Shown here: positions 3,258-63,822 of the stretch, piece after piece
Numbering within the stretch: the stretch's first letter is position 1
How the letters are laid out: each line of letters opens with the position of its first letter
NCBI GenBank assembly: GCA_027604185.1
Contig: JADGKB010000059.1
Span: 1 to 64,000 of the forward strand
DNA: 64,000 nt
DNA from: Boothiomyces macroporosus
Taxonomy: Eukaryota > Chytridiomycota > Chytridiomycetes > Rhizophydiales > Terramycetaceae
Reading direction: 5' to 3'
Translations under genes and position numbers: made by a program
Notes under the pieces: model-generated
The model's database searches: none
What the model was told of the DNA's origin: nothing
The model's input: the letters and a program-made list of their open reading frames with translations, nothing else

Positions 3258-5887
3258 ATGATAGAGGAAAACAGTTTAAACACTGCAGCTGTTGAATTAC
3301 GGAAATCCGAGGATACGATAAATAATTTACCAATCAGTCCGGCAGTCAGTACTCTTGAAAGCGCAATGACCATCAATGAAGACACTCCATATCAAAGAAA
3401 AGAACAATGTCTAATTAAACAAGCATTGGGGAATAAACAACTATTTGAAGGGGAGAATACGAAAAAATCCAATTTTTACGGGATAGAGACATACTCTTCT
3501 GACGATGAATGGGATCCCAATGACAACAAGAGGGACTCTGATTTCTATGGATATGGACCAGAAATTAGTTTTGAAAAAGAAAATTCAACCATCCCCGAAG
3601 TTGCTGTTACAGTGCCTATTGAAGACGATGTGACGATGTTGGCCTTTACTTTTAGAATGCTATTGATCTCCACTGTTGTAGTAGCCACTACCACATCCAC
3701 AGCCAATTTCTTTTTCTTCAAGCTGAACAGAGTCTATTTGGATGGTACTTTATATTAATTCTAGTTTTATCTGTAATCATATGTGCATATTTTATTGGTA
3801 ACGGAATGGCAAAATTACCGAAATCTTGGACTTTGTTAAATCCAGGACCATTTACTCACAAAGAGCACACTCTAATTGCGATTGCTTCTATGGCGGCGAG
3901 CAACAACATTGGAATGAATGTAATTTCATTGCAAAGATTATTTTATGGAAGAGGAAACGATTCTAATTATGTAAATAGTGGTATTGATATCGGAAACTTG
4001 AGCTCTATTCTGTTTCTTATATCTACGCAGTGTATTGGAATTGGCTTGGGTGGAATTCTAAACAAATACTTGGTTTTACCTGCAGCTTTTTGGTGGCCCG
4101 AAACCATCACATCAGCAAATTTAATCCATACTTTCCATAGCACCGTCAGCCATATTATTACAAAATACCGAATGCTGGCCTTCTTTACTGTATTTGGAGT
4201 CGGGTTTGTGTATCAATTCCTTCCGCAATTCTTCATGCCAGTATTACAGTCAATATCAATCTTATGTTTGGCAGCTGGTGGTGCATCAGGAAAGTTTAAT
4301 CCTCCAAATGAACCAATTGTCAAACAGCATTATCGACAGCCTCTTTTAGGGCAAATGGGATCTAGTCAAGGTGGAGGCATTTTGTCATTATCGCTTGATT
4401 GGACTGCAATATCTTTTTTGGATCCACTGGTAACCCCAATTTGGTCTCAAGCAAATGTTCTTTTCTCCAACTACTTTTTGGCCTGGGTTGTAACCCCTAT
4501 ATTATATTTCATGAACACTTGGAATGCTAAAAACTTTCCATTGTATATGCCTGCCAATTTTTACCTTAACGGGACAAAGTACCGTCTTCAACAGTTTCTG
4601 GTGAATAACACCCTTCCTGCTAACGAGGCAGTGCCGCCAATGTGGATACCTCCATATTGGGCAATTTGCTACGGATGTGGTTTTGCAGCCCTTTCATCAG
4701 TAATCGTTCACTATTTGGTTCATTATGCTGCCAACTCTTACAGTGTCTTTTTCCAATCAACTGATGATCTAGCTCAAAAAGATATTCACAGTAGATTGAT
4801 GAAAAGATACGAGCCTATCCCCTTGGTTTGGTATGTCGGATGTACCTTGACTATGCTAATGGTTGGTGTTTACGTTACAACTTTCAACTCTATTGGATTC
4901 CAAATTTCAAGTGATTTTTGGGTTATTCCTTTGGCACTATTTATTGCAATTGTGTTTGCTATACCAACTGGTATTATTAGGTCAATTTCAAATCAAACAA
5001 TCGACCTTTCTATTATTACTGAATTGATCATGGGTGTACTCAAACCAGGATTTCCACTAGCGAATGCAACCTTTACTGTGTTTACTAATGCTGCATTACA
5101 ACAAAGTTTAAGTTGTGCAGCACAAATGAAGCTGGCTTACTACATGAAAGTACCTCCAAAAGCAGTCTTTGTTATGCAGCTTTATGGAACTATCTTGGGA
5201 TGTATAGTCAACTACTTTTCCTTTGACTATATGGTTCGAAATGTGCCTCAAATCTGGAGAGCCACCCATTCAATGTTTAGTACCAATCAATGGAGTGGGA
5301 GATCTGCGACTATTTTGCAAACAGGCTCTGAAATATTTGGTGCGATATCCCCAAGCAGATTTTTCGATGGCAGCAACACTCCATACAGTTTGCTATTCTG
5401 GTTCTTTTTAATCGGTGCTGCACTGCCTTTGGTATTTTACATTGCAGCTAGATTTTTCCCAAGAGCTGGATTGCAATATGTAAATTGGCCAATTATATTC
5501 CAATCTGCAGCTGTAGTTGCTGGCGGGCATGGAAACGCGATTCTTTCAGCAACCCTGGTTGTTATTGGTACTCAATATTTTTTGAGAAAATACAAAAGAA
5601 GCTTTTATGACAAGTATAACTATATCACTGCTGCTGGTTTGGACTGTGCTGCAACTGCAGTACCTATTCTACTCTATCTGCTATCTCAACTGAAGAGGAT
5701 TACAGAAGGTGAAACTCACTATGGATGGGACGATATTTCTGACTTGATCCCATACTATGCTCTGAAACCCAATCCAACTACCTTTGGTCCTGACTACTGC
5801 GGCGGGTTCAAATTCTTTAAAGGGAATCATACGGGCTATTTCAACTCTACCTCAACTAATTATACCAGAGGTCATACTTGGCAGTGA
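3258..5887 (+). CDS. OPT-family oligopeptide transporter 2
   Basis: Second OPT transporter, 869 residues, exons 3258-3744 and 3765-5887. The 20-nt intron (GTAC... TTAATTCTAG) removes an in-frame stop and restores the frame. It shares with the first transporter the tyrosine/serine motif ETYSSD, the phrase TIPEVAVTVP before membrane segment 1, NPGPF, GLQYVNWP and the overall order of hydrophobic segments, so the two arose by duplication. Splicing makes the region before NPGPF about eight residues shorter than in paralogue 1. A one-base frameshift instead of an intron would give a better length match there, but the intron fits the local consensus exactly. The C-terminal tail has N-x-T sites and is longer than in paralogue 1. 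Confidence 0.9.
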
Positions 5888-6045
5888 CCAATTCGAACAA
5901 AGATCCTTTGGTTTTCATCTATTTATACATAATATATCTATTCTATTATATTTCGTAATATATCTATTATATCCTTATTGTCAAGCCTGGATGCCTAATG
6001 AGAAATGCTTTGGAACAGAATTCTTTTTTTTGTTTTCCAATCAAA

Positions 6046-6682
6046 ATGACAAAACCAAAAATCGTAGTATTCATTTCCGGTAGCGGAACCAACCTTCAAG
6101 CTCTCATCGACGCTACAAAATCAGGTGATTTAGAATGCGAAATTGCTCTCGTAGTCTCAAACAAGCCAGGTGCGTATGGCTTAAAGCGAGCTGGTAAATT
6201 CAACTAATCCAGAACAAAACAATATCCCTACCCTAGTAAAGACCCTCAAGCAGTACAAGGACCAGGGGAAAACAAGGCTAGATTATGACATTGATTTGGC
6301 GACAGAAGTTATTGAGAAATTGGAGTGCACACCGTCGCTTATCGTCCTCGCTGGATTCATGCATATCCTTTCTGCTGATTTCCTACAACTATTCCCAAAA
6401 GACAGTGTTATTAATTTGCATCCTGCCTTACCAGGAGCATTCGATGGCGCAAAGGCGATTGAAAGAGCGTTTGAAGCATTCCAAAAAGGAGAAATTGAAC
6501 ATACCGGAGTAATGGTACACCGCTGTATTCCTGAAGTTGATAGAGGAACTGTGATTGTAAAGCAAATATGTCCTATTGAAAAAACTGATACATTAACTGA
6601 CTTGGAAGAAAGGATCCATAAAATTGAACACGAACTGATAGTCCAAGGAACTGGATTGGCGTTAATGATGGCCAACAAGTAA
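6046..6682 (+). CDS. ADE8: phosphoribosylglycinamide formyltransferase
   Basis: Third step of de novo purine synthesis: transfers a formyl group from 10-formyl-THF to GAR. Exons 6046-6193 and 6213-6682 give 205 residues, the usual size of the monofunctional bacterial/fungal/plant enzyme rather than the trifunctional animal protein. Visible are the N-terminal FISGSGTNLQ phosphate-binding loop, the catalytic HPALPGAFDG segment and the HRCIPEVDRG motif with the catalytic Asp. The intron is 19 nt. It ends 27 bp before the stop of the convergent exosome gene. Confidence 0.95.
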
Positions 6683-6709
6683 TAATATATTTCTTTTTAT
6701 TAAATAGTA

Positions 6710-7647
6710 TTAGCGGAATCCAACTGGCTCTACGAGGTCAATTATTCTTCGTTCTTCTTGAGCTAAAAAGCTATCCATTGCAGATATCACCTCCTGCCCT
6801 TTATTTTGGCAATGCTGAGTTAGTGGTATTTACCTGAATCATATTAATCAACAAGCTGGTTTCCAATGATCCTTTTAGCCCTTTTTGTACTCCACAAAGC
6901 TTTCCGTGTTTGTTTACCATTACAGACACGGAGGAATCAGAGCATTGCTCTTCTAATGGCATAGCATCAATTACATGGTTTTTGTCAATCTGGAAAGCAG
7001 TCACAGCAACTGGCACATTTTCTCTTCCCTCAAGAACTTCTGTTTCGTCATCTTCCACTTCAAAATCAAACGCACCATCTGTACTTTCAACCTTTACTTT
7101 GGCAAGACGAGTGTTGTGAATAGCGCCTTTGTTAAAATCATTTACCTCTTACTGCCATAAATATCGCATCAAATACACTGCCGCCATAGTTTAATATCAA
7201 CACATCAATGTTCAGGATCCAGCATACTGATCCAGGAATGATACAGAGCTTATACAAGTCCAATCCTCCCTGCGGACCATTCAGTGTACGATTCAGAATC
7301 TGCGTATATAATATACACATTTCTTCTATCTGACGTTTGTCCAGCACAATTTTAGCAGAAGGTGAACACTCTACTGAACACACAATTCTACCCACATCTG
7401 CTCTGTTTTTCATTGCTTCCTCTTCTTCATCGCGGGTATCCAACTCCTGAATATCTCCAACAGATACTTTGATGCCGACTAATACTTCTGTTCCACCACG
7501 AACTGAAACTCTGCATGAACCTGATGCTTGGTTGATAATCCCGGTTTCTAATTCCAGTTGCCGTGACTCATTCGGCCCTCTTCCATCGTTTCTTATCCCT
7601 GCAGCTATTCCTTTGGAAATGTAGTCCTTTTCTACTTTCGAAATCAT
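6710..7647 (-). CDS. RRP42: exosome core subunit RRP42 (RNase PH-like)
   Basis: Subunit of the nine-protein RNA exosome ring (EXOSC7/Rrp42), acting in 3' RNA processing in nucleus and cytoplasm. Exons on the minus strand: 7647-7146, 7126-6834, 6814-6710; 299 residues. Family features are the NDGRGPNESR start, the ELETG and GSCRVSVRGGTEVLVGIK strand pair, PGSVCWILNIDVLILNYGG and the DAIFMAV helix. Both introns are 19 nt. I use the ATG at 7647 (MISKVEKDYISKGI), which matches the family start; an upstream in-frame ATG at 7668 lies in the gap before the divergent TFIIS gene. Only 32 bp separate the two start codons. Confidence 0.93.
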
Positions 7648-7679: not shown

Positions 7680-8607
7680 ATGACATTGGAAGCTAATGAA
7701 ATCCCAATGATCAAGGTTCAAATATCCAAGGCACTGAAAGAGAAGGATTGGAATGTATAGTCTTGCTAACGTAGAATGTTGCAGATCTGCTAACTCAATT
7801 GGAGGATTTTAAAGCCTCGACAGAAACTTTAAAAGTAATTTCGGTGCTAATCAAGTCAACTCGAATTGGAGTATTTGTTACTGACATCAGAAAGCATCCT
7901 GATGTGAGCCAAGATATCAAGGATCAAGCGAAGGCGTTGGTAAACAAATGGAAGCATGATATTGGAAGAACTGTAGAAATCAAGAGACAAGACTCTGTAA
8001 GCTCGCAAGTCTCTACTCCGACATCTCCGGTAGAAAGAAACGTATCAACGGACAACATTAAAGTAAAAAATCTGGGTGACAAGGTTCGCATGAAATGTAC
8101 AGAAATGATTTACGGTGCTTTGGCAACGGGATCTAATGAAGGTAAATAGCTCCTTATCTAGAACCAAAGGACGTTTTAGATATATGCGAAATAATCGAAA
8201 AGACTGTGTTTGGAGAATATGGCGCAACCAATGAGCAATACAAAAAAAGGTTCCGTGCACTGGTATCAAACCTAAGAGATAAGTCTAACCCAACCCTTAA
8301 AGCCAAAGTTGTCACCCGAAAGATTGAACCGCAGGTGTTTGCTTTAATGTCCACAGAAGTATTCTTGTATTAAATCTAGGATATGATGTCGAAAGATCGA
8401 AGAGCTGTAATAGACGAAGCGGCCAAAGAAGCCTTGGAAGAAGCTACTTCTGCGCAGCCAGTTCTTCAAACTACAGACATGTTTAGATGTGGAAGATGCA
8501 AAGAAAGGAAAACTACTTATTACCAGATGCAGACCAGAAGTGCTGATGAACCAATGACAACTTTTGTTACTTGTGTAAATTGTAATAATAGATGGAAGTT
8601 TTGTTGA
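7680..8607 (+). CDS. DST1: transcription elongation factor TFIIS
   Basis: Rescues backtracked RNA polymerase II by stimulating transcript cleavage. Exons 7680-7754, 7775-8141, 8162-8358 and 8380-8607 encode 288 residues. Order: N-terminal LW/TFIIS-N helical domain (about 5-80), serine-rich linker, central domain (about 125-235) and C-terminal zinc ribbon with CGRC and CVNC pairs. The cleavage-inducing acidic pair is present in RSADEP of the ribbon hairpin. Introns are 20, 20 and 21 nt. Divergent from RRP42 with 32 bp between starts. Confidence 0.96.
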
Positions 8608-9080
8608 ATCTGGAAATAAACTTGCTTTTGATCATTACGCCATGTCCCAGCTTGTCTCCACAAAGTTCTTGAAACAGTATAATTAGACTGAACTGCGTGG
8701 AGGGGATGTACTCTCTCCTTGATAAGCACAGGCTTCCTTGAATTTAGCAATTTTGGTTATGTCATTAGGCTCAGTTAGCATAGAGGATATTTTGGGTGGA
8801 GCTTGGAGGTCATATCTGAAACTTGATATACTGTTATAGTGCCTCCCCAGAGCAAAGACTGCGATGAGCTACCTTCAAAAGGCAAGGACTGACGACCAAT
8901 TCTATTGTACTCAATGAATGTCGGTTCCGGCCACCTATTTAGGATGTATTATTTGATTGCCTCCTGTTTGTACAACCAACCTTTTGCAACAGGGGGCAAA
9001 TGCAGTTCCCTGGCGCAATGGTGGCTAATCGAAAAAAAGACTTAAATATTGAAGCCCTTCATTAACCTGATATTCTCATA
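8608..9080. other. intergenic region, nothing assigned
   Basis: About 470 bp between TFIIS and a small predicted gene. It holds only short frames on either strand, none with family similarity or plausible exon chains. I see no repeat or RNA gene. Confidence 0.5.
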
Positions 9081-10174: not shown

Positions 10175-11095
10175 ATGCTAATCACGAGCACTTTGCTTCC
10201 TATTGTTTTTTGGCATGGAATGGGAGACTCTTGCTGCGATGGAATCAGCAGAGTAGAGGGTGAGATTCAATCTTGGTATCCAGGAACTTTTACTTACTCT
10301 GTTAGAATCGGAGATGATAAGGAATCTGACAAGAAAGCGGGGTTTTTCGATAAAATAGATCGACAGGTAGATTGAACTAAGTTAGATTGAATATGTTTGC
10401 CAGGAATTGAGTGCTATCCCAGAGCTAAAGAATGGATTTAACGGGATTGGATTTTCTCAAGGTGGACTATTCTTGAGAGGATTGGTTCAGAAATGCGATT
10501 CCATAAAAATGGTAAATCTGATGACGTTTGGATCTCCTCATGCTGGGGTTGCAGATATTCCTAATTGCGAGGAAGAATCTGCAAACTGTTCGTTAATGCG
10601 ATCAATTGTTAAAACGGGTGTTTATTGGAGCTGGATTCAATCAAGTGTAGTTCAAGCGCAATACTACAAGGACTGGAAAAACCTTGATAAATATCTTGAA
10701 TCCAACATCTTTTTGCCTGATTTGAACCAGGAACTGGAAGATATTAATCCAGATTACACAAACAAAATGAAATCATTGAAGCGGCTGGTTTTGATTAAAT
10801 TTGAGCAAGACCATATGATTGTACCTAAAGAAACGGCGGTAGAAAGCTTATTAATCTAGTGGTTTGGTTTTTACGATGAAAAAGGCCAAGTGGTTGATTT
10901 GAAAAATCAAGAGTGGTACAAATCAAATAAGCTTGGCTTAAAGGACATGGATAGCCAAGGAAAGCTATACTTTGTGTCGCTGCCTGGCGAACATGTAATC
11001 AATATTAATAGCAGATGAAGTTTGACATTCAGGATCTAAAGGCGTTAATTGAAGAATACTTCCTGTCCGTGAATCTTTTAAATATATTTAAATGA
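10175..11095 (+). CDS. PPT1: palmitoyl-protein thioesterase
   Basis: Lysosomal/vacuolar alpha/beta hydrolase that removes palmitate from cysteines. Exons 10175-10366, 10386-10838, 10860-10994, 11015-11095; 286 residues; introns 19, 21 and 20 nt, all phase 0. Diagnostic features are a short hydrophobic start, the oxyanion segment PIVFWHGMGDSCC, nucleophile GFSQGG, TFGSPHAG, the catalytic Asp region (EQDHMIVPKE) and catalytic His in LPGEHMKF. The length matches the PPT1 family. The N-terminal hydrophobic stretch is short for a signal peptide, so an upstream start cannot be excluded. Confidence 0.93.
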
Positions 11096-14077: not shown

Positions 14078-15561
14078 TTAGTCATCAGTTTCGTAAATTT
14101 TTTCAGGTAGTTGAAACGGAACGGTCTGCAGCGAAGATTTGCTTGGAGAAATCGGCAGCGCCTGAAGTGTTTCTGATTTAGATCGCTGATGGATTTCTGG
14201 TATATATGGTGAATTGACTTTGGGTGTAGATTCAATTGTCGAATTTTCATACTTTCTAGTAGAAAAACTCTTTCTGTGTAGCATAGGTGCAAGAGCACCA
14301 GGTTTTTCATAAGTAAATATACTCCCAATGTTTAAACTTGGCTTTTCAACCGCCAGCATTTTATGATATTCTTTCAAGGTAAAAACCACATAGCTTTTAT
14401 CATAGTATATACTGGATATTTCTTTGTCTTTCTTTTTTAAATCAGGCATAATTCTTGGTGGGGGTTCTGTGAATGAATCGTTGACCCACTTATCTTCCCG
14501 CAATTCATTCATAGAAGCTCTTTTATTCGGATCCTTCACAAATATTTTCTGAAAAAGATGAATCAAATCTCCAATTAGCAAAAATCTACCCTCAGAAAAT
14601 CTTTTTAATGGTCGATATCGTATCTCTTTGATATTTCTGTAAAGAAGTGTTAGTGTTGCCCCTTGAAAAGGTGTATTTCCTGTCAACATCACCCACAATA
14701 TAACTCCCATTGACCAAATGTCTGCTTTGGTGCCAACATAGGGAATTCCTGAAATTACTTCTATTGCTGCATAGTTTGGAGTTCCACAAAATGTCTAATT
14801 TAAAAAGGCCGTACAACCATATAGTCTTCTATTTTTGAATTAAACATTCTGCTAAATCCAAAATCTGTAATAAGAATATTTCTTTGTTTATCCAACAGGA
14901 TGTTTTCTATTTTTAAATCACGATGGACAATATTAGCAAGGTGGAAATGATCGATTGCTGATATTAACTGACGAAAATATTTTCTGGATTCCGCCTCTGA
15001 CAAGTATTCAGATTTTTTAATATAATCAACCAGCTCTCCTCCTTCAGCGTACTCCCTTCTATTAACAAGAACCAATACATAACAATCAAGCTTTCCTCTT
15101 CAGTATCAAATACTTGAAAAATCTTGATAACATTGGGGTGACTAAGTTGCATTAACACTTTAACCTCCGCCAAAGTAAACTACTAACTACCTGCAATTTC
15201 CCTTGGATCCCTGACTCATCGTCATCCTTCCGCAGGTAGCTGACTGAAGGGATATTCTTATTAGCTGATAAGTCAATTAACAATTTAGAAAATTCCGAAT
15301 CTTCCTGATTGAGAGGATTCCTCTTTTTTCTGCTTGTATCCAATGCCGCAATTCTTTGTTTTTCCATTTCCTCTCTATTCTTCTTACTTTTATTTAATCT
15401 CTCTTGCATAATTTTCTTGTTTATAATCTTTATCGCGACCTTAAATTAAAAATACCACTGACTTTACATCCTGAATGTATGTGTATACCCATTTTTACTT
15501 TTGAAAAAGAGCCTTGCCCCAAGGTTCTTCCAATTCTATATTCGCCCACAATGTTGTTCAT
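14078..15561 (-). CDS. Ser/Thr protein kinase, SNF1/CAMK-like
   Basis: Protein kinase of 465 residues. Minus-strand exons: 15561-15463, 15439-15191, 15170-15079, 15058-14818, 14794-14078. Motifs: glycine loop LGQGSFSKVKMG, VAIKIINK, HRDLKIEN, TDFGFS, CGTPNYAAIEVI (APE-like) and WSMGVILWVMLTG, typical of the CAMKL/SNF1 branch. A charged insert of about 75 residues lies between the catalytic Lys and helix C. Intron 2 is best read as 15171-15190 ending in TG, which keeps the helix-C glutamate (AEVKVL); the nearest AG gives a 26-nt intron and replaces that Glu by Gln. The C-terminal 150 residues are Ser/Pro-rich and likely regulatory. It shares a 39 bp gap with the divergent MFS gene. Confidence 0.88.
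15171..15190 (-). other. apparent GT-TG intron in kinase gene
   Basis: Twenty bases between exons 2 and 3 of the kinase, starting GTAG and ending TTTACTTTG. Removing exactly these bases keeps the conserved Glu of helix C. The alternative AG six bases downstream makes a 26-nt intron, longer than any other in the window. Confidence 0.6.
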
Positions 15562-42543: not shown

Positions 42544-43020
42544 TTAATTGTCCTTTAGTTGCATATTTCTAGTAGCAGATGGCATGGTAACTGTCATTCC
42601 ATCCAACTCTTTGGTCAATGTTACTTGGCATCCTAACCGGGAACTATATTAATTAATGAATACGTTTCAGTCAATCCAAATGCTAAATCCAGCATATCAT
42701 TCTCCTCATCTGAAGGCTCTTCCAATTTATCATAGAATTCTGGTTGAATAATCAAGTGGCAAGTGGAGCAAGCCAAAGAACCTTCGCATGCACCTTCCAA
42801 ATCGATATTATTTCCATGTGCGATATCCAAAAGGTTTGTATTTGGCTTTGCATATACAGTAATCTTTTCTTTTTGTGGTGTGATGAATGTAACAGAGAGT
42901 TTTTCAGCGTCGGTTGGTTTTTCGAATGGCTTGTGTAATGCGGCTATGTTAGAAGAGGTTACTGAGTGAGGAATGGAATTGTCTTGGTTTTAATTTAAAT
43001 ATATTTCGGATTAACTTCAT
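42544..43020 (-). CDS. YAH1: mitochondrial [2Fe-2S] ferredoxin (adrenodoxin type)
   Basis: Electron donor for Fe-S cluster, haem A and ubiquinone synthesis. Minus-strand exons 43020-42963, 42943-42664, 42643-42544; 145 residues; introns 19 and 20 nt. Presequence [18 protein letters not shown], then the cluster loop [11 protein letters not shown] with further Cys at LGCQV after LTETSR, and the acidic partner-binding helix [12 protein letters not shown]. The end [16 protein letters not shown] matches adrenodoxin-type ferredoxins. Confidence 0.97.
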
Positions 43021-48176: not shown

Positions 48177-50463
<2,287 letters not shown>

Positions 50464-51066: not shown

Positions 51067-51922
51067 ATGGTTAATTCAACAGATCCAGCATTAATCAGCC
51101 AAGTGTATTCAGACATTAACCAAGGGTGGGAGGTAATAGTGAAATAAGGGTAGGCTGTCAAAATTTTGGAAATGATAATTATTCCTTATGGCTACTATTT
51201 TCTCCGACCCAGTAAAGTCGCGACTGTTTTGCTATCGATTGCATTGGTAAATGTCTTGCACAATATATTTGCCTATACTGCGTTTTATCTTGGAGATATG
51301 TATCCGGGGTTCAATGGCCAAAACTTGTGGACTGCCCAAGCAGCTTCTGCAGCAGCAGTAAGGTCTTTGGAACTATATTGTAACTTTTTGATGGTCGCTG
51401 CTGTAGCAAATCGAAATCAAATTAGATTGCTCCAAGTAATTACATTAATTGCAATGGTGGGAGTATGGGGAGGAAGGATATATGATGTATACGGTGCTTT
51501 TCTCGTTGAATCTAATATCCGAGTTGGTATGGCTATTGTAGCTGCTTTTGGTGTATTTCAAAGTTGTTTCGGACTATATACAATTCGATCTGCAATGACT
51601 GTATTAGGGCCAGAAAATGCAGGAAATGGTCAGGTGCGAAAGCTGCTTCTAAAGAGCGCTGTCCGATTAACGTTTATCCAGTTTATCGATATTTTTGAAT
51701 TAATCGGTAAGTAGTCCTAAAATAGGCGCAATATGGATGAGAGGATCAATTTACACTCTGTGGTGGGATATGATTGCCGGCAACTTGGATAACAGTCGCG
51801 GACTGTTTATGTTTGTTGATTTATTGATGACCCGGATTGAATACATGAAAGGAGGTTCCAAAGATCCCAGTGCTGGCCAGTCCGCTCAGTTTGAATCTAA
51901 TCTACACCAATCGAATAAATGA
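51067..51922 (+). CDS. polytopic membrane protein, paralogue A
   Basis: Exons 51067-51132, 51154-51706, 51726-51922; 271 residues; introns 21 and 19 nt. After a polar start with N-x-T (MVNSTDP) come about six hydrophobic segments, with signature phrases IPYGYYFLRPSK, YLGDMYPGFNGQNLWTAQAA, GVWGGRIYDVYGAF and GSIYTLWWDMIAGNLDNSRGLFMF. The C-terminus is polar. I do not recognise the family. It is clearly paralogous to the gene at 52895, with identical exon phases and an exon 2 of the same length (553 nt). A RAD51D-like gene lies between them. Confidence 0.85.
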
Positions 51923-51963: not shown

Positions 51964-52704
51964 ATGCAGGAGTTTTGCTCATTCGACTGGAAAGGAATTA
52001 CGGAATTCGCAGGTCCATCAGCATCAGGAAAGACTCAAGTAACCATATATTAATCCTGTTTGCCCATCTATGCGTGTTGAAGGCGGCCTCTAAAGGCAAG
52101 GCGATCTATATAGACTCTGGTAATCAGTTTTCCTTTCGGAGGTGCAAAGACTTGATTTTAAATTCAGATCACTTGGATATGGATTTAAAGAGTCTTGGAA
52201 ATATTCATCATTACAACTGTTTTCAAATATACGATTTGTTTACAATCTTGTACGACTTGCTAGAGTCGATATCTAAAGGGCTAAAGGTTGAATTGATTAT
52301 AATCGACTCTATTGGGGCTTTGCTTATCCCTTTCTTGGGCCCAGGACAAAAGCGAGGATATAAATTACTATCCAAGATAGCCGAATTGCTGAAACAAATC
52401 TCTAAAAATATACCCATAATAGTACTTGCGTTTAAACTAGACAATAAACTATTCAGTATCGGCAAAGAAGGATGAATCAAAATCGCTTTTAACAGATACA
52501 AAGCCAGCATTGGGACAATATTGGTCAAAGATTCCAACGTGCCGCTTTTATTTCACAAGATCAGAGGATGAATTAAATCATGCTAGTAGGATACTGCAAG
52601 ACAAGCTGATTGACGATGACATTTTGTCGTACGAGAACAAAAAGGGAGTTATATTCAAACTCGTTGAATTTACGGTGGAGCATTTTGGAAAAGTATATTT
52701 GTAA
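51964..52704 (+). CDS. RAD51D: RAD51D-like RecA-family ATPase
   Basis: RAD51 paralogue, 233 residues, exons 51964-52038, 52059-52421, 52441-52704. Walker A GPSASGKTQ, AIYIDSGNQFSF, Walker B VELIIIDSIGALLIPFLGPGQKRG and the KPALGQYWSKIPTCRFYF segment correspond to RAD51D. The N-terminal helical domain of RAD51D is absent: the protein begins a few residues before the Walker A strand, so it may be truncated or its first exon was missed. Intron 1 ends in TG (20 nt); the next usable AG would make a 44-nt intron and shorten the Walker A to strand-2 spacing from 15 to 7 residues. It lies between two membrane-protein paralogues. Confidence 0.8.
52039..52058 (+). other. apparent GT-TG intron in RAD51D-like gene
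   Basis: Twenty bases starting GTAACC and ending TTAATCCTG with an in-frame TAA. Removal gives GKTQ-FAHLCVLKAA, with the usual spacing of RAD51D proteins between Walker A and the following strand. Confidence 0.6.
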
Positions 52705-52894
52705 TTTACTTAGGGTCAAAGTGCAAATTTCTATGTAGGCAAGTATGATATTATTGTGCCAAAATATTCCCCCGATTCCTCTGCTTTATCGCAGTAGTTA
52801 ATTTAACAGTCCTTGATATTAATTTAATGTTATAAAAAAGATATGTTGTAAGCCACCCTGTATTTGTTTCTTCTTTTGAGACGCGTATAGTTGA

Positions 52895-53685
52895 ATGTTT
52901 GATTCCACTTCATCAATACTGATTGGGCAAATATACTCGGATATCAACCAAGGATGGGAGGTATCATAAACTAACACTTTGGCAGTTAAACTGTTGGAAA
53001 TTATAATGATACCGTACGGATACTTTTTCCTGCGTCCAAATAGAATTGTAACTATTTTACTATGGATATCAATGGTAGACATTTTGCACAATATATTTGC
53101 TTATCTTGCGTATTACCTTGGGGATATATACCCAGGCTATTATACGCAGAGTTTATGGACAGCACAGGCAGCAGCAGCGGCTACAGTGCGTTCTTTGGAA
53201 TTATATTGCAACTATCTGATTGTTTCCGCAGTATCAAGTCCTCAACAAACCCGACTACTTGGATTGGTTACAATTCTGTCTGTTGTTGGGGTGTGGGGAG
53301 GTAGAATATATGATGTCTATGGGTCATTCCTGATATCTTCGAGTATCCGTATTGGGATGGCCATAGTTGCAGCATTTGGAGTTTTTCAAAGTGGATACTG
53401 CCTGTATATTATTCACCGGGCAATGAATGCGATTTCCACAAAGTCTCAATCTGGTAAACAGGGTCAAAGGTTGTTGGTGAAGAGCGCTTTGAGACTTGCA
53501 TTCATCCAATTCATAGATGTATTCGAATTCATAGGTAGTTGAATGCTAAACAAGGCGCTATGTGGATGAGAGGATCAATTTACACTCTATGGTGGGATAT
53601 GGTCGCTGGTAACTTGGACAACTCTCGAGCACTATTCATGTTTGTTGATTTGCTAATGACAAAAATCGAGAATATGAAATCGTAA
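52895..53685 (+). CDS. polytopic membrane protein, paralogue B
   Basis: Exons 52895-52960, 52982-53534, 53555-53685; 249 residues. Closely similar to paralogue A: QIYSDINQGWE-AVKLLEIIMIPYGY, YLGDIYPGYYTQSLWTAQAA, GVWGGRIYDVYGSF, GSIYTLWWDMVAGNLDNSR. The C-terminal polar tail is about 20 residues shorter. Intron 1 must be 21 nt and ends ACTTTG; the first AG (25 nt) shifts the frame, whereas the 21-nt removal reproduces the WEAVK junction of paralogue A exactly. Function unknown; about six membrane segments. Confidence 0.85.
52961..52981 (+). other. apparent GT-TG intron in membrane paralogue B
   Basis: Starts GTATCA, contains CTAAC and ends ACTTTG. Both flanking frames are fixed (ATG upstream, paralogue homology downstream), so the intron length must be a multiple of three; the nearest AG at 25 nt is excluded. 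In paralogue A the matching intron is 21 nt and ends in AG. Confidence 0.75.
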
Positions 53686-54101
53686 CTCAGCATTAATCAA
53701 GACAAAGGAAGAGTGTAAGTAAAACAGCTAAATGATTAAATATTGTTTTTTTCAAGTTTAGCCAAATCAATTGGCAAAAATCTGCCGCTTTCAAATAGGC
53801 TATTTTTTAACCTGAGGATTTAAATGAATTCATTCTCCTGAAACATTTTGAATGTAGTAGAATGATGGAATACTAGCCCATGAAACTTTTCACTTCCAAC
53901 ATGAGGATGATGTGAAGGCACTATTTTGAAATCAAACTCGTGTATTATCTTTTACAAGCAACATTACTTGCGGGTATTATTTCCATAGCATTTATCATGA
54001 ATTCTTGAAATCCATCATTTTCAAGTACAGATTCGCGGCCATCAAGATCTCCTGTGGCGTGAACTTACTCATAAAAATCATCGCCCATCATCCTTATCAA
54101 A
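53686..54101. other. intergenic region, nothing assigned
   Basis: About 415 bp upstream of asparagine synthetase. No coding frame of note, repeat or RNA gene seen; likely holds its promoter. Confidence 0.5.
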
Positions 54102-55926
54102 ATGTGTGGAATATTCGCAGTATTTGGATTTGCAGAAGGGCAAACAGAATTTCGCCAAAAGGCAACGCAACTATCTAAAAAGTATTCCCAATCTTAAACT
54201 AGAATTCGTCATCGTGGACCTGACTGGTCTGGTGTTAAACTAGCGGGACAAAATATATTATGTCATGAGCGTTTAGCAATTGTCGGAGTTGGTATTTCAT
54301 TTTAATTCCTAGATTCTGGTGCACAACCATTGACCAATGAAGACGACTCTGTTATCTTGGCTGTAAACGGTGAAATCTACAATTATTTGGCTTTAAAGAA
54401 ACAATTGAAGGGCAAATACAACTTCAAAACTCATTCTGACTGTGAGGTGTTGCTTTACTTGGTAATTAATGTGCTAAACGCAGTGGCAAGAGCAAGGGCC
54501 AGATATGGTCAAAGTTCTAGACGGAATGTTCTCCTTTGTGTTATATGACGTAAAGAAGGATGTATTTTTTGCTGCTAGAGATCATGTTGGTATCACCACC
54601 ATGTACCAAGGATGGAGATCGTCAGATAATTCGGTGTGGTTCTCTTCTGAAATGAAGAGCTTGAATGAAGACTGTGATAGAATCATTGCATTCCCGCCAG
54701 GGCATTATTATCTCAGCAGCACTAAAGAAACTGTGCAATACTACAGCCCAAAGTGGTACGGGGATATTGCAAACGGAATCCCTCCACTTTCAGACGAAAA
54801 CAAAGTATTAACTCCAAAAGAAGACGAAGAAATGTATACTGCTATTCGAAAAGCGCTAGAAGCTTCCGTCAAAAAGAGACTAATGTCTGAAGTACCTTAT
54901 GGTGTTTTGCTTTCTGGCGGGCTTGATTCTAGTTTGATTGCTTCGATTGCAATGAGAATGCGCAGTGCAGAAAATGGTGATGAGGACGATTTTGATATTA
55001 AATGTAATTTTAAACTAATTATTAGCCAGCGTCTCTGCATGGCCATCATTGCACTCGTTTTCAATTGGGTTGCCAGGATCTCCTGATTTAGCTGCAGCAG
55101 AAAAGGTTGCAAAGTTTTTGGGAACCATTCATCATGCGTTCACGTTTACAGTGCAGGAAGGTATTGATGCTATCTATGATGTTATTCATCACCTTGAAAC
55201 CTATGATGTTACCACTGTTAGAGCTAGCACTCCAATGTACCTTTTATCACGAAAGATTAAGGCTATGGGAGTAAAGATGGTACTTAGTGGTGAGGGATCA
55301 GATGAAATATTTGGAGGTTCATTATATTAATCATAGGTTATTTGTATTTCCACAACGCTCCATCTGCCCAATCGCTACATCACGAATGTATTTCCAGGAT
55401 TCAAAATCTGCATACCTCTGATAACTTGCGTGCAAACAAATCTACAATGGCTTGGGGTTTGGAAGCTCGTGTACCTTTCCTTGATCGCCAATTCTTGGAT
55501 GTGGCAATGGAAAAAGTACCAGCTAACCACAAGTTAACTGGAAGTGGCCCGTATAAACATACTATGGAAAAGTATGTACTTCGCAAAGCCTTTGACACTC
55601 CTGAATCTCCATACTTGCCACATGAAGTGCTATGGAGACAAAAGGAACAATTTTCTGACGGCGTCGGCTACTCTTGGATTGATTCCGTAAAGGAATGGTC
55701 TGAAAAGAACATTACTGATGCTCAAATGGCCGGTGCTGCCCAACGCTTCCCACACGACACTCCAACGACAAAGGAAGCCTACTGGTTCAGAGATATCTTT
55801 GAACAGCACTTTCCTCAGAAGGCATGCTTGGAAAGTGTTGTACGCTGGATTCCAAGAAAGGACTGGGGTTGCCCAGAAGACCCATCTGGAAGAGCTCAAA
55901 AAGGACACATTGCAAAGTATGAATAA
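54102..55926 (+). CDS. ASN1: asparagine synthetase (glutamine-hydrolysing)
   Basis: Converts aspartate to asparagine with glutamine as nitrogen donor. Exons 54102-54181, 54203-54291, 54313-54461, 54484-55003, 55026-55316, 55337-55926; 572 residues; introns 21, 21, 22, 22 and 20 nt. MCGIF gives the Cys nucleophile after Met removal; RHRGPDWSG and LAVNGEIYN belong to the glutaminase domain; [13 protein letters not shown] is the ATP pyrophosphatase loop; [11 protein letters not shown] and [10 protein letters not shown] complete the synthetase domain. Length and motifs are standard. Confidence 0.97.
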
Positions 55927-55954: not shown

Positions 55955-56720
55955 TTAAGTATACTTTGGAATAGGGGTTTTGTAGCTAGTAGGTGCTTGT
56001 CCGTTATTGTGCAATCCACTAGCATTTGCCAACTCTGCAAATCCTTTTTGTTGTTTCTGCACCGCTCCCAATTTGACAGCCTTTTCTGCAAGCAAGCGTT
56101 CTAAGATTAACTAATAATGTACCTGACTCTGTTCCGTGTCTTTCACCTTTCCCGTCTTTCTTTAGCGCATACTGAACAACAATGCTCCTGTTCATCAAGA
56201 ACTGTCCGTTCATGGCTTCAATAGCAGCATCAGACGATGCAAAATTATCATAGAATATAAATGCGAACCCTTTTCCATCTTTAGTTCCTTGCACATCTCT
56301 AGAAATTTTAGGTGTTTGTGTGAGTACTCCAAAAGCACCAAAGGTATCAAACAACAACTTTTCGTCCACCATCGGATCCAAATTCCCAACAAATAACGTG
56401 GCTCCAACTTCAACTACCTGGTTATCCTTTTCATTCGTAGCTTTGTTTACTCTAATTGGTTTCCCAAACAATTTAACCATATTTAATATTTTAATTGCGT
56501 AATCTGCATCTTCCTCCGACATGAACTCTACAAATCCGTATCCTTGGTGGGCTTGGGATACTCTGTCTTTTGGCAAATGAACATTTACAACTGGACCAGC
56601 TTGAATAAACACTTCCCATAGCAGTGGCTCTGTAGCTCTTTCATCCACGTTTGCGATATACACTGTTGCTTCTTGGTTACGATCGTCGCCAAGAGGTAAG
56701 GCTGCTGGTTGTTGCATCAT
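55955..56720 (-). CDS. SF3B4: splicing factor 3b subunit 4
   Basis: U2 snRNP SF3b protein (yeast Hsh49) contacting pre-mRNA upstream of the branch point. Minus-strand exons 56720-56123 and 56100-55955; 247 residues. Two RRMs: [19 protein letters not shown]...GYGFVEF and [17 protein letters not shown]...GFAFIFY, then HGTESERLLAEK as in the family. The long Pro-rich tail of the animal protein is missing. The 22-nt intron contains no in-frame stop, so intron-blind translation reads through into a wrong frame. Relevant because SF3b defines branch-point use, which must be unusual here. Confidence 0.94.
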
Positions 56721-56762: not shown

Positions 56763-59027
56763 TTAAAATTCAAACTCGTTTCTGAATGCGTCCAGGTTGT
56801 GTGTATCACAAGCTTGAGCCAAATCATCTCGTTTAACTAGAGTTAATGCAATATTACTGTAGGTATTGAGAAGCATTCTTAATGCAGTCCACACACACTC
56901 ACTCTGGCCAATATGCATTTGAATCATTTCATCCTTATTGAATTGTGTCTTTTCATTTACAGCCTTCATGCTTGCTTCTTGAGTTGCTAAAGCCCCCAGC
57001 AAATAACCAGCTGCTTCCCTGTATTGCCCAAATTGTATACATGCAATAGCAAGGTTATACCTGGCCCTAATGTATGACGGGTTGATATTTAGTGCTTGAA
57101 AGTATGCATCTAGTGCTTTTTCTGCTTCTCCAGAATTCGCAAGTGTAGCACCAAGCTTATTCCATAGTTCATAGTTATCTGGTGACTTTGAAAGGGCAGA
57201 TTGGAAACAGTCAATAGCTTTTTTGTATTCCATCCCTATATTGAACAAAACACCAAGAGCAGTTTGGACATCTGGATCCAAATTATCTCCTGGTCTAGAC
57301 ATTGCAGCTTGAATGAAACGTTCAATGAGATTTTCATATCTTTCCATGCTAGACAGTGTACCTTGCTTTGAGGGAATACGATTATACTCTGGGTGTCTTC
57401 CTAGCCATTGATTCAAACACTCGTAGGCTTCATTGTTAAAGTTCTCGTTTGTGTGAGACACAGCTAACGGAATGTAGCTATCAAGGTTTTGAGGATCAAT
57501 ATCGATGGATTTTCGGAAAGCTGAAATAGCAGCAAATTCATTTTCATTTTCTTGTTGCTTTTTACCTAATTGATGCCAAGCAGTTGCATTTTGCGGATCT
57601 TTCTGAACCATGGCTTCCAAAGCTAAAATAGATTCTGTGAGATTGTGGTTTGAAACTGAGCGTTGCAATTCAGCTTCAGAGAACTTAAGATAAGGATTTT
57701 TCGGAGAAAATTGGTACTGGCTGCTTCTAGGATCCGTAATTACATGAGATGACTGCATTTCTCTCCACGAAGCTTCCATTTGGTCCATTTGATCCTTCAA
57801 GGCCCGAGTTTTTTCATCAATGCTCATTGAATTCAAGTTATTTGCCAAATCCTGTTGATATAACTCTTTTTCTCGTTCATCATTAGCATCAATGAATTGC
57901 TGCGGCCAATCCATATCATGAGATACATCACTCGAGTACTGTGGTTGCCAAGTTCCAGTTTCTTCTTTACTCTTGGTTTCGATAAACTCTTTTTGCCAAT
58001 TTCTTGGAGGTGCATTTTCAGCTTCTTGAACAGCTTTAAACTCTGATTCCCATTGGATATCAGTCTCTTTGGAAGAGATTGTGTTTTTTGGCAATTGTTG
58101 CATTGAAGGCTGGAATCCCATGTTCAATGGCTCATGGAAATTCATTCCAGGATTCATCATTGGCTCCATCATATCCTGTGGTTGATATTCCATCTTGCTC
58201 TGTTCGGTATTTCTAAAGTATTCATTCCATGAGTTTGCTTGCTCAATATCATGGATATTGCTGATATTAAAATCCTCTTCCCAACTAGTAGTACTGATCT
58301 TTGCTCCAGTAAATTCCATGGCTGTCTCATGTGAAGAAGCAGGTGTAATTTGCTCCACCATCTTGTCACCTTCAACTGCTACTTCTCCATCACGAAGCTT
58401 TTCCATCATCTCTAGGAATTTGCTATTCTTGAATTTTGGATTTTCTGAGCTTCCTACAAGTTGAGCTACGATAGCAGCAGTCTTTGCCAATGCATCTTTT
58501 GGGTTCCCTTCTTCAACCTTGAATTCTTCAGCCCAGTCTTCATTCTTCTGAAATTCGTTTGCCCAATCCTGATTTTCCTTGAATTCTGTAGCCCATTCAC
58601 TCTGTTTGCTAAACTCTTGTTCCCATGTCTTTTCATGAAATGCTTTTTCAAATCCATTATCATTTGGTCGACTATAAATCTGTTCAAATTGATGAAATTC
58701 CTGTTGATACACTTGTTCAAAATGGTGTTGCTCTACAGCTGGGTGAAATTCATTTGCCCAATTATTTGCAGGAGGATGAAATTGTTTAAATTCTCCAGCC
58801 CAGTCATCCTGAGGTGTCATCATTTGCGGTCCATTTACTAGTGGACCATTGATCATTGGGTTATTCATTCCCATCGGATTTAATTGAGGGACAAGGCCAT
58901 TCATTTCCTGTGGAATTTCCATTCTTCCTTTCTGCTTGATGTTAGTGACTATACGATCATTCTGCAGTGAAATATCTTTTTCGAAATGCTTTTGTATTTG
59001 ATTTATTGCTGAAGACGAGCAGTCCAT
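56763..59027 (-). CDS. PEX5: peroxisomal PTS1 receptor PEX5
   Basis: Cycling receptor importing SKL-type proteins into peroxisomes. Single exon, 754 residues. The start MDCSSSAI has the conserved Cys used for export-linked monoubiquitination. The N-terminal half carries eleven WxxxF/WxxxF-like motifs (WAGEF, WANEF twice, WEQEF, WATEF, WAEEF, WEEDF, WNEYF, WESEF, WQKEF, WPQQF), more than in yeast. The C-terminal half has TPR repeats (ATAWHQLGKKQQENENEFAAISAFRKSI; ELWNKLGATLANSGEAEKALDAYFQAL). Tandem with SF3B4, 42 bp apart. Confidence 0.97.
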   Translation of the reverse strand: MDCSSSAINQIQKHFEKDISLQNDRIVTNIKQKGRMEIPQEMNGLVPQLNPMGMNNPMINGPLVNGPQMMTPQDDWAGEFKQFHPPANNWANEFHPAVEQHHFEQVYQQEFHQFEQIYSRPNDNGFEKAFHEKTWEQEFSKQSEWATEFKENQDWANEFQKNEDWAEEFKVEEGNPKDALAKTAAIVAQLVGSSENPKFKNSKFLEMMEKLRDGEVAVEGDKMVEQITPASSHETAMEFTGAKISTTSWEEDFNISNIHDIEQANSWNEYFRNTEQSKMEYQPQDMMEPMMNPGMNFHEPLNMGFQPSMQQLPKNTISSKETDIQWESEFKAVQEAENAPPRNWQKEFIETKSKEETGTWQPQYSSDVSHDMDWPQQFIDANDEREKELYQQDLANNLNSMSIDEKTRALKDQMDQMEASWREMQSSHVITDPRSSQYQFSPKNPYLKFSEAELQRSVSNHNLTESILALEAMVQKDPQNATAWHQLGKKQQENENEFAAISAFRKSIDIDPQNLDSYIPLAVSHTNENFNNEAYECLNQWLGRHPEYNRIPSKQGTLSSMERYENLIERFIQAAMSRPGDNLDPDVQTALGVLFNIGMEYKKAIDCFQSALSKSPDNYELWNKLGATLANSGEAEKALDAYFQALNINPSYIRARYNLAIACIQFGQYREAAGYLLGALATQEASMKAVNEKTQFNKDEMIQMHIGQSECVWTALRMLLNTYSNIALTLVKRDDLAQACDTHNLDAFRNEFEF

Positions 59028-61905: not shown

Positions 61906-62018
61906 AAAAAAACTGCCCCATATGGGGTATCCTCTCAAGTATTGCGTGTCATCCTTGCACAGGGAGCCATGCTAATCTTCTCTGTAATGTTCCATTAAAG
62001 TATGAGCTTTTACACTCG
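61906..62018 (-). ncRNA. U6 spliceosomal snRNA
   Basis: The minus strand carries the invariant U6 core: ATTACAGAGAAGATTAGCA, the AGC triad, GTGCAAGGATGACACGCAA and a 7-T terminator (61912-61906). The 5' stem-loop AGTGT...ATACT starts about 62016. Before the T-run there is an extra perfect hairpin CCCCATATGGGG (61927-61916) not usual in U6. The 5' end is estimated to within a few bases. Confidence 0.95.
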
Positions 62019-62041
62019 AAAGGAAAATCAAAATTTTTGAT

Positions 62042-62051
62042 TGATATAGTA
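62042..62051 (-). promoter_or_regulatory. upstream TATA element of U6
   Basis: ACTATATCA on the minus strand, about 25-30 bp before the estimated U6 5' end, the position of the external TATA of Pol III type 3-like U6 promoters. Confidence 0.55.
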
Positions 62052-62174
62052 CAATTTTTTTTCCAGCTTTTTGTCAGCTACTTCAAGCCACACGAAAATT
62101 AGCATGATAGATGGATCAACTTAATCTTCAATGCAATAATTTTGGAAAGAATAAGGAATATAACAGAAAAATTT

Positions 62175-63822
62175 TTATTCTTCTCTTCGGCTAAATTGAA
62201 TATAGGATTCTCCTTCAGGGACTACAATCAATGAAGTGTAATCTGCCTTTGGGAATTTCAGTTGGTTCTCGTTGTCCTTTACTAGTTGGAGGCTAAACTG
62301 TCTTAAAAAGATGGCAATAATGGTTTTGATCTGGACGTAGGCAAAAGCTTCACCAATACAACGATGTCTTCCAGCACCAAATGGTAAAAAGTGTGATCTT
62401 GCTGATTTCTGTGCAATATTAACACCATTGATAGTCCTAAAATTAAGTGATGTTACCATTCTCCATTTCCTTCAGTGTCATTCAAAAATCTGCTAGGTTC
62501 AAACTTTTCTGGATCTGGGAAACGTACAGGGTCAAATTGAGAAACTGCTTGAGACCCACACAAAAAGTGTCCTTTTGGAATCTCGAACCCTTGGTAAGTT
62601 ACATTCTTTTCAACTTTTCGCATAACAGTGTGAATTGGTGTATGAAGTCTAAGAGTTTCTTTCATTACACAATCCAAAAACTCCATCTTTCGCAATTGCT
62701 CATAATCAAATTGAGGCAAATCCTTTGCTGGAGTGTCTGGTTTACCGGTCAAAATCATTGATTGTTCTTTCATGATTTCTTCAATAACATCGGGTCTGCG
62801 AGCTAATTCAAACAAGATCCATGAGGTAGTAGTGGAAGAAGTGTGTTGTCCGCCCATCAAGGTAGCAATCATTAAATGCGCAATAGCATCGTCAGACATC
62901 TACACATGAGTTTATATTACCTTGGTTCCGTTTTTGTATTCAGATTTCATTAATGTGCTCAATACATCAGTGTATTCGATATTGTTTTTTCTACGTTCAG
63001 CAATAATCTTTTTGAAAGTCTCTGTCATCAAGTTGTGAGCGCGATCTCTTGCGAAATAAGTTGGTAATGGAAGCCATCTAAAGAAAACATTGATTGGAGC
63101 TAATCCTCGGTCCAAGTCATGATAGAGTTGAGCAACGTTAGAGTGAAGTTGAGATCTGATTTCTTTTCCCATTAAACATGCAGCAGCAGTACGGATAGTC
63201 AATTCAGACATTTCTTTAAAGATCAGAGCAGTTCCTTTCTTTGGGAAAGTGTTGAAGAATTCTACACTTTCTTCCCAAATCAATGGTACATACTTTTTAA
63301 ATGCATCACTGGTGAAGGTATCCTTTACGAATCTGCGTTAACTAAAAAGTACTTTTTCTGTTCCATAAATACTGAATTATGAACATCGTAAACAACTTCA
63401 GTTCCAAATACAGGAACAGTTAGCGTTCTATATGCACCCTCAGCAGAGGCGTTGGCAATTGGGACGTTAAAAACAAAGTGGTTTCCATCTGGGCCAAGGC
63501 AAAATGTCATCTTTCTCCCCATCATCATAAAAGTAAAGCAATCTCCATACTACATTAGTTTCAAGTACTTTGGCACGGCAATCTTGCAAGAACTTGATAG
63601 GGTCGATACCATAAGGGATCGCACTTCCTAATAATGGGATTGTATATGGCACCATTGGCGGTTCATTTGCAGAGGTAGCTTTGGTCTTGAATTAGTGATT
63701 GTTACCTTGAACAATAATGTTGACGCGCCGATTACGGCAATTGCCAATAATATTAAAGTGGTGTGGTCAGCGGTTTGTAAAAACTCTGAAATAGTGTTGT
63801 ACAGATCTACAGCTACACCCAT
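62175..63822 (-). CDS. ERG11: lanosterol 14-alpha-demethylase CYP51
   Basis: ER cytochrome P450 of sterol synthesis and azole target. Minus-strand exons: 63822-63706, 63685-63569, 63549-63353, 63332-62921, 62899-62457, 62436-62175; 515 residues; introns 20, 19, 20, 21 and 20 nt. N-terminal anchor TLILLAIAVIGASTLLF, P-rich PPMVPYTIPLLGSAIPYG, I-helix MIATLMGGQHTSSTTTSW, KETLRLH, and haem loop PFGAGRHRCIGEAFAYVQ. The Tyr-rich substrate-recognition region reads VFGTEVVYDV. Wording is fungal CYP51. All motifs are intact. Confidence 0.97.

Follow-up and report, generated by a model that had tools for sequence, protein, structure and literature searches.

Introns of about 20 nucleotides as the apparent norm in the chytrid fungus Boothiomyces macroporosus, alongside a seemingly canonical spliceosome

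How short can the introns of a whole fungal genome become? The question is raised by a 64,000-base window (bases 1-64000 of one contig, the whole stretch of DNA analysed here) from the assembly of Boothiomyces macroporosus, which comprises 15,203,306 bases in 216 contigs. This species belongs to the Chytridiomycota (Rhizophydiales; Terramycetaceae), and the genus Boothiomyces is saprotrophic. The original prediction for this window proposed that almost every gene is interrupted by introns of nearly always 19 to 22 nucleotides (nt), which would give a fungal genome a whole intron set at the limit of size. This was upheld for Boothiomyces, in which nearly all sampled introns were 18 to 25 nt long. 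Judging from the sequence, we consider it highly probable, the account of two short spacings given below included, that the predicted segments are ordinary U2-type introns, with GT-AG and rarely GC-AG ends, which have shortened to a lower limit of about 20 nt.

Introns were sampled from the window and from twenty 10-kilobase (kb) stretches of 20 other contigs, 264 kb in total, with a purpose-written codon-aware gene finder. The first pass admitted introns of 10 to 300 nt under a flat length prior and without a branch-site model; beyond GT and AG it demanded only that the spliced frame be open, while an A at position +3 and a TAA were not asked for. This run produced 116 genes above the score cut and 247 introns, of which 94 measured 19 to 22 nt (23.5 per length), 134 were spread over 23 to 300 nt (0.5 per length) and 19 were shorter. 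A TAA near the intron end emerged in 73 of the 94 introns of 19 to 22 nt, compared with 39 of the 134 longer and 3 of the 19 shorter ones, and an A at +3 was found in 81, 64 and 10 of these, respectively. The flat-prior calls outside 19 to 22 nt look like noise. Independently of the gene finder, the pattern GTA..TAAY..AG occurred 96, 133, 81 and 51 times at 19, 20, 21 and 22 nt in 268 kb, compared with 33, 41, 36 and 33 times in one third-order simulation, and no comparable excess was observed at any other length from 12 to 100 nt. Both results agree with the predicted start in GTA and end in TAAT or TAAC plus 2 to 6 nt and AG.

In the second stage, splice signals were learned from the first-pass introns over three iterations. 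The learned-signal run on the 264 kb plus the Prp8 locus gave 439 introns, 399 of them at 19 to 22 nt. The learned signals were then applied in a final short run with a 26-nt intron ceiling and in a comparison run with a 300-nt ceiling and GC donors allowed. With the 26-nt ceiling, the sample contained 155 genes, 122 of which had at least one intron, and 412 introns of 18 to 25 nt at a density of 2.15 per kb of coding sequence. Again 399 measured 19 to 22 nt, and they were present in the window and in each of the 20 other contigs. Extrapolation to the genome gives approximately 23,700 introns, uncorrected for duplicate contigs. Two stretches of 3288 bp bearing the Cwc25 gene (contigs C49 and C100) were found to be identical, indicating that parts of the assembly are duplicated between contigs. 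In the comparison run, 412 of 437 introns were of 18 to 25 nt and 25 were of 41 to 241 nt.

Within the window, the 26-nt ceiling yielded 37 genes (33 with introns) and 118 introns, matching the predicted totals of about 118 and about 37, although the exact agreement is partly luck and single calls may differ. The lengths were as predicted for 111 of the 118, with 22 introns of 19 nt, 44 of 20 nt, 34 of 21 nt, 11 of 22 nt, 5 of 23 nt and one each of 24 and 25 nt. With the 300-nt ceiling, 36 genes and 122 introns were obtained, 113 at 19 to 25 nt and 9 at 48 to 220 nt. The claim that none clearly exceeds 25 nt largely stands, with one 59-nt call (45447-45505) as a possible exception. In loci outside the window, calls of 38, 59 and 142 nt became GC-AG introns of 20 to 22 nt once GC donors were allowed. 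Introns were found across the predicted span of 3745 to 63705, but the span was drawn too narrowly, as the intron at 2082-2102 also belongs to the set.

The 412 introns share a common anatomy. The donor consists of exon A-A-G followed by GTAATT, with frequencies of 0.90 for A at +3, 0.57 for A at +4 and 0.57 for T at +6, and at +5 T reaches 0.44 and G only 0.17. The A at +3, found in 372 of the 412, was not required by the model, whereas GT and AG were. With GC donors allowed, GC-AG ends were found in 3 of 412 short introns, all of 20 to 22 nt and in loci other than the window. The branch motif is mostly [CT]T[AG]A[CT], with the listed TAAY pentamers present in at least 271 introns, and in most introns this U2-complementary motif lies 2 to 3 nt ahead of the AG. 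The branch A, as inferred from the motif, falls at nucleotide 14 or 15 in 354 introns and leaves a tail of 5 to 6 nt in 366; where only one TAA/TGA candidate existed (347 introns), it was at 14 or 15 in 303. The loop measures 14.75 ± 0.78 nt, the tail 5.55 ± 0.78 nt and the total 20.3 ± 1.0 nt, with a loop/tail correlation of −0.18 (−0.24 on the 347 single-candidate introns). The first AG past the branch point is used in 391 of the 412, and the introns are 71% AT. With the branch A at 14 to 15 nt and a tail of 5 to 6 nt, it follows that the spliceosome would have to cope with hardly any spacing from 5' site to branch point to 3' site, as had been proposed.

To gauge single calls, each window intron was forbidden in turn and the loss of score recorded in log units. 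The loss exceeded 2 log units for 105 of the 118 introns and 4 log units for 92. Eight spliced window proteins chosen from the 37 were compared with Pfam; each exceeded the cut-off of a family, and the listed best stretches enclosed 19 of the 27 introns of these eight genes. The two OPT paralogues at the start of the window, identical at 376 of 875 alignment columns, have one intron each, of 21 and 20 nt; the two coincide in aligned column and in phase, which fits an intron older than the duplication. These paralogues (118-5887) are divergently transcribed. In-frame stops occurred in 79 of 102 introns with a length divisible by three and in 183 of 307 others (Fisher p = 0.0012; genes open at the 5' edge excluded), an excess that carries no weight because the gene finder more easily misses stop-free introns of the former kind.

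The window proteins were also compared with deposited ones. NOP58 was 100% identical to a deposited B. macroporosus protein over 89% of the query, the next matches being Boothiomyces sp. JEL0838 (95% over the whole query) and then Globomyces (87%). The deposited B. macroporosus NOP58 is identical at joins 1 and 2 of 4, then reads into the third intron and stops, and the JEL0838 protein agrees at joins 1, 3 and 4 and loses 24 residues at intron 2. The lymphoid-specific helicase (Lsh) was 91% identical overall, gaps included, to the deposited B. macroporosus Lsh, in which six of nine joins agree and 14 residues are missing at intron 9, where JEL0838 matches the present model. JEL0838 Lsh lacks the exon of three residues that separates introns 1 and 2, and both deposited Lsh proteins omit a 43-residue exon (introns 4-5) which holds the DEGH box. 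The JEL0838 coronin starts late and agrees at five of the six joins covered; it translates the 21-nt intron at 25368-25388 as RLVWHNF, a stretch absent from the Terramyces and Spizellomyces proteins, and the stop-free B. macroporosus segment would translate as RLVRHNF. The combination of matching and failing joins indicates that the short introns are already within the deposited models, which err at them. At these introns, some deposited proteins of B. macroporosus and its relatives have segments missing or added, which affects users of these proteomes. In a separate observation, the coronin-7 models of JEL0838 and Terramyces are fused to a downstream glutathione S-transferase kappa-like gene (PF01323 listed for both); in B. 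macroporosus the coronin frame ends at 26086, and the downstream gene begins with an ATG of its own.

Could the deposited annotation instead be right where it differs, with longer introns swallowing the supposed short exons between two ultrashort introns? The deposited Lsh models do splice from the 5' site of one 19-nt intron to the 3' site of the following one, and 25 of 437 calls persist as long ones at the 300-nt ceiling. However, the omitted Lsh exon encodes a conserved DEGH segment and is upheld by the proteins of Gorgonomyces, Homolaphlyctis (one change in this segment) and Globomyces, and the same deposited models are identical across other introns of the gene, of 20 and 24 nt. Moreover, no length peak was seen above 25 nt, either up to 100 nt in the pattern count or up to 300 nt in the flat-prior run, and we regard this alternative as quite unlikely.

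Proteins of relatives were also aligned. Three of the four internal deletions of at least 3 residues in Terramyces coronin lie within 3 residues of Boothiomyces intron positions. In Lsh, Kappamyces loses 16 and Globomyces 14 residues, starting no more than 2 residues from the same intron position, whereas 6 of 8 Kappamyces gaps and 7 of 8 Globomyces gaps of at least 3 residues lie at least 13 residues from any intron. In NOP58 of Kappamyces, nine extra residues stand at a place without a Boothiomyces intron; they could represent a 27-nt intron that was retained. These alignments give hints that the ultrashort-intron trait may be wider than Boothiomyces. A search for the relatives' DNA in viral contigs with one protein query found no relative.

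Next, we considered the splicing machinery. One copy of U1 was found, 163 nt long and matching the Rfam model over positions 1-166 at 68.8 bits (gathering score, 69.5), with its recognition sequence AUACUUACCUG intact. U2 was present in two copies with GUAGUA intact, and the ACAGAGA of U6 was intact as well. The U12 small nuclear RNA (snRNA) gave no match in the genome, and control genomes gave none either, so that its absence is not shown. All eight spliceosome proteins sought were found, namely Prp8, Slu7, Prp18, SF1, Cwc25 and Yju2, each above the Pfam cut-off, together with U2AF65 and U2AF35. U2AF65 scored 230.7 bits (curated cut-off, 310.3) in a six-frame search in which exons score apart, and its name depends on score and match length because RRM families match two bacterial controls too. 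U2AF35 appeared as four pieces with 51 to 67% identity to an approximate fission yeast query sequence. Six of the seven modelled spliceosome genes themselves have introns of 19 to 24 nt: Slu7 (21, 20 and 23 nt), SF1 (24, 22 and 21), U2AF65 (21, 19, 20, 19 and 19), Prp18 (21 and 21), Cwc25 (21) and the Prp8 stretch (20 and 19), with none in Yju2. The Cwc25 N terminus, MGGGDLNLKKSWHP, keeps the GGG plug, and the first 14 residues of the protein are the same as in the CWC25 homolog of 5yzg; Slu7 aligns with SLU7 of 5xjc in two long stretches; we take 5yzg and 5xjc to be human structures. The machinery examined, comprising the U1, U2 and U6 sequences and the eight proteins, thus seems canonical rather than modified.

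Three expected departures were not observed. In yeast, short distances from branch to AG make Slu7 and Prp18 dispensable; loss of Slu7 or Prp18 had been predicted here and was refuted, as both are present. The predicted loss of U2AF or SF1 for want of a polypyrimidine tract was not borne out, all being found, and a Cwc25 lacking its plug, as in Stentor, was refuted by the GGG. The recovery of eight out of eight proteins (only these eight were sought) differs from a reduced spliceosome of the mikrocytid or microsporidian type. These findings also bear on the idea that the segments are kept in the mRNA and skipped in translation, or removed by a non-spliceosomal route. The genome holds U1, U2, U6 and every spliceosome protein sought, and most of the segments combine GT or GC...AG ends with the U2-complementary motif shortly before the AG, making such a route highly unlikely.

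Comparable introns were then sought in the literature. The original prediction was correct in pointing to nucleomorphs and some ciliates, to which mikrocytids can be added. The Bigelowiella natans nucleomorph has uniform introns of 18 to 21 nt at about 3 per kb of coding sequence (PMC6461891), similar in both respects to Boothiomyces, in which 366 of the 412 introns fall within that range (2 at 18 nt and 364 at 19 to 21 nt) and 46 measure 22 to 25 nt. However, the nucleomorph introns lack a 5' motif beyond GU, in contrast to the clear Boothiomyces donor motif; the nucleomorph U1 and U5 are shortened, U1 to 102 nt, which is said to parallel the tiny introns; and this is a 373-kb relic nucleus rather than a 15.2-Mb fungal genome. 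The mikrocytids Mikrocytos and Paramikrocytos likewise have only tiny introns, uniform at 16 to 17 nt and conserved in sequence, but M. mackini is a parasite with 224 introns, compared with the extrapolated 23,700 here, and has a reduced spliceosome, 17 to 19 of its proteins having been identified in mikrocytids (PMC10245619). In Stentor coeruleus, the entire set of 15- to 16-nt introns lies at the floor, is AU-rich and places the branch A 5 nt before the 3' end (PMC9505925; PMC5014332), much as in Boothiomyces (5 to 6 nt; AT-rich). Stentor differs in its loop of 10 to 11 nt, in the lack of a strong branch consensus (compared with [CT]TAAY here) and in changes to Isy1 and Cwc25, the latter having lost the GGG (PMC9505925). 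Introns of Paramecium and Nyctotherus are of about 25 nt.

Among fungi in the wide sense, the microsporidian Encephalitozoon cuniculi has introns of 22 to 76 nt, but these number 37, vary in length and belong to a reduced parasite (PMC3629993). Cryptococcus neoformans is an ordinary fungus with introns termed ultrashort, but there the term means less than 60 nt, with an average of 56 nt, and those below 40 nt are few and poorly spliced (PMC11913375), whereas 20 nt is the norm here. These two cases refine the statement that fungal introns are usually at least 35 to 40 nt long. Within the excerpts of the open-access literature searched, there was no report of such introns in a fungus outside the microsporidia, and the nearest fungal report is that on C. 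neoformans. Tiny introns could be attributed to odd machinery because the known exceptions compared here (Bigelowiella, mikrocytids and Stentor) have altered or reduced parts. The Boothiomyces parts examined appear unaltered, including a full-length U1, the Cwc25 plug, Slu7, Prp18, SF1 and both U2AF subunits.

How might such introns be spliced? Each consists of two nearly independent short spacings, approximately 14 to 15 nt to the putative branch A and then 5 to 6 nt to the end. A U6-paired 5' site and a U2-paired branch site of about 6 nt each would leave a linker of about 3 to 4 nt, suggesting that the smallest loop compatible with both snRNA duplexes in the catalytic core sets the length. 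A canonical spliceosome would recognise these introns as a unit, i.e., by intron definition, and deletion would drive them down until loss of splicing below about 19 nt halted the shrinkage. A gap of 15 nm separates the U6/5' site helix from the U2/branch helix in the human B complex, and for this reason a minimum of about 50 nt, with an estimate of at least about 52 nt, has been given for the distance from 5' site to branch (PMC6692369). A spacing of 14 to 15 nt suits the catalytic core, where the two sites meet, but would not fit early complexes built as in humans, suggesting that either the sequence of events or the geometry is different, with parts that look conserved in sequence. A more far-reaching reading, put forward tentatively and with slightly less than even confidence, is that a spliceosome of canonical parts splices some 24,000 introns with a 14- to 15-nt gap between 5' site and branch through early complexes unlike the human B complex, with the 5' site passed to U6 only once the U2/branch helix is in place, or with a compressed geometry. 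The trait would be common to a Rhizophydiales group (Boothiomyces, Terramyces and perhaps Globomyces and Kappamyces) and would corrupt the deposited protein models. If splicing is confirmed, this fungus would be suited to studies of the limits on intron length, and minimum intron size becomes a testable question.

Several points weigh against reading the segments as ordinary introns at a length floor. Thirteen of the 118 window introns had a removal margin of 2 log units or less, and for five the loss was zero because a different parse scores better at these places under the 300-nt ceiling. The call at 8573-8591 in TFIIS is false, as the unspliced frame gives what we take to be the usual zinc-ribbon end of the family. 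At 45447-45505, the short-only model loses 12 of 18 score units, and this call may be a true longer intron or reflect an error in the frame. Lowering the ceiling on the nine long window calls turned three (59, 68 and 126 nt) into short-intron parses of slightly lower score; those of 151, 115 and 48 nt disappeared, with two gene models each split in two, and for those of 142 and 220 nt a last or first exon was lost. Among all 25 long calls in the 264 kb, 13 lay in gene-splitting models, 4 became short parses, 6 lost an end exon and 2 were unreplaced, and a few real longer introns may be among them. Deposited models differ from the present joins at several sites in NOP58, Lsh and coronin. The branch points are inferred from motifs by a search trained on introns of this kind, and this makes the distributions narrower. 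The poor splicing of C. neoformans introns below 40 nt is a further objection, as is the human minimum of about 50 nt between 5' site and branch compared with the 14 to 15 nt found here.

The remaining alternative, in which assembly or sequencing errors break frames that the gene finder mends with chance GT-AG pairs, has a negligible chance of being correct: the false TFIIS call and the flat-prior calls outside 19 to 22 nt resemble such noise, but errors would produce neither the length peak nor the branch motif, nor a common intron position in divergent OPT paralogues, nor a stop-free 21-nt coronin segment that recurs with one residue changed in JEL0838, whose joins match elsewhere.

The window genes are listed in Table 1.

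Table 1. Window genes with predicted introns, and the U6 gene (gene models from the run with the 26-nt ceiling, with single-intron removal test; many names were assigned by eye, as marked).
Gene	Position	Strand	Predicted introns	Remarks
OPT-type transporter (by eye)	118..2553	-	2082-2102 (21 nt)	column and phase as in paralogue
OPT-type transporter (by eye)	3258..5887	+	3745-3764 (20 nt)	first intron of the original prediction
Formyl transferase (GAR transformylase by eye)	6046..6682	+	6194-6212 (19 nt)	PF00551 over spliced residues 5-194
Unnamed	6710..7647	-	7127-7145, 6815-6833 (19 nt each)	
TFIIS	7680..8686	+	7755-7774, 7835-7855, 8142-8161, 8359-8379	Pfam; true end earlier, 8573-8591 unspliced
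Unnamed	10220..11095	+	10367-10385, 10839-10859, 10995-11014	
Protein kinase (by eye)	14078..15561	-	15440-15462, 15142-15164, 15059-15078, 14795-14814, 14569-14589	first two uncertain (59-/68-nt alternatives)
Transporter-like (by eye)	15601..17249	+	15815-15836, 15907-15929, 16032-16052, 16230-16252	first two uncertain (126-nt alternative)
Armadillo-like (by eye)	17446..18556	-	18346-18364, 18066-18087, 17968-17992, 17704-17723, 17567-17586	
Unnamed	18648..19513	+	18981-19002, 19228-19246, 19433-19453	
NOP58	20008..21528	-	21386-21406, 20924-20944, 20195-20215, 20080-20100 (21 nt each)	deposited homologues
RhoGEF-like (by eye)	21594..23134	-	22854-22875, 22639-22659, 22544-22565, 22208-22228	
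Coronin-7	23233..26086	+	23293-23311, 23755-23774, 23863-23882, 23983-24004, 24721-24739, 24852-24872, 25166-25185, 25368-25388, 25865-25884, 25971-25993	ten introns
Glutathione S-transferase kappa-like (by eye)	26167..26859	+	26214-26233, 26380-26401	first uncertain
PEX19-like (by eye)	26949..27790	+	26977-26997, 27189-27208, 27272-27291, 27646-27664	
NAD kinase	27799..28882	-	28789-28808, 28435-28453, 28295-28314, 28174-28193	Pfam
ATP synthase (gamma subunit by eye)	28907..29819	-	29737-29758, 29584-29604, 29164-29184	PF00231 over residues 17-281
Ubiquitin protease (by eye)	30400..32325	-	32276-32295, 32180-32200, 31712-31731, 31308-31326, 31155-31174, 31069-31089, 30970-30989	
Phosphodiesterase (by eye)	32391..35116	-	34936-34956, 33036-33055	
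Unnamed	35753..36304	+	35841-35861	
Phosphoribosyltransferase	36364..37086	+	36412-36430, 36505-36524, 36665-36683, 36828-36847	Pfam
EFR3-like (by eye)	38593..41311	-	41028-41048, 40902-40921, 40747-40767, 40577-40596, 40379-40399, 40280-40299, 39504-39523, 39117-39136, 38951-38970, 38792-38810	
Ferredoxin	42544..43020	-	42944-42962, 42644-42663	Pfam
ZPR1	43099..44513	-	44075-44094, 43688-43708, 43282-43302	Pfam
Cysteine synthase-like (by eye)	46791..47972	-	47312-47332	low confidence
Lymphoid-specific helicase (SNF2), Lsh	48177..50379	-	50224-50247, 50195-50214, 50075-50094, 49769-49787, 49621-49639, 49390-49409, 48765-48784, 48628-48647, 48449-48467	
Unnamed	51067..51922	+	51133-51153, 51707-51725	
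Unnamed	52179..52797	+	52422-52440, 52693-52713	
Unnamed	53006..53735	+	53535-53554, 53682-53701	
Asparagine synthetase	54102..55926	+	54182-54202, 54292-54312, 54462-54483, 55004-55025, 55317-55336	Pfam
Two-RRM protein, SF3B4-like (by eye)	55955..56720	-	56101-56122	
PEX5-like (by eye)	56763..59027	-	56837-56857	low confidence
U6 spliceosomal RNA	61918..62023	-		Rfam RF00026, 62.2 bits; ACAGAGA box intact
Cytochrome P450 (by eye)	62175..63822	-	63686-63705, 63550-63568, 63333-63352, 62900-62920, 62437-62456	

Two other features of the window were observed. Two similar membrane-protein genes (51067-51922 and 53006-53735) lie around a third gene, and a local duplication is suspected by eye. An inverted repeat (60400-60948 and 61295-61843) has arms of 549 nt which are 99% complementary and spaced by 346 nt; each arm contains an intronless open reading frame of 170 amino acids, secreted-looking by eye, and the U6 gene lies just past the repeat.

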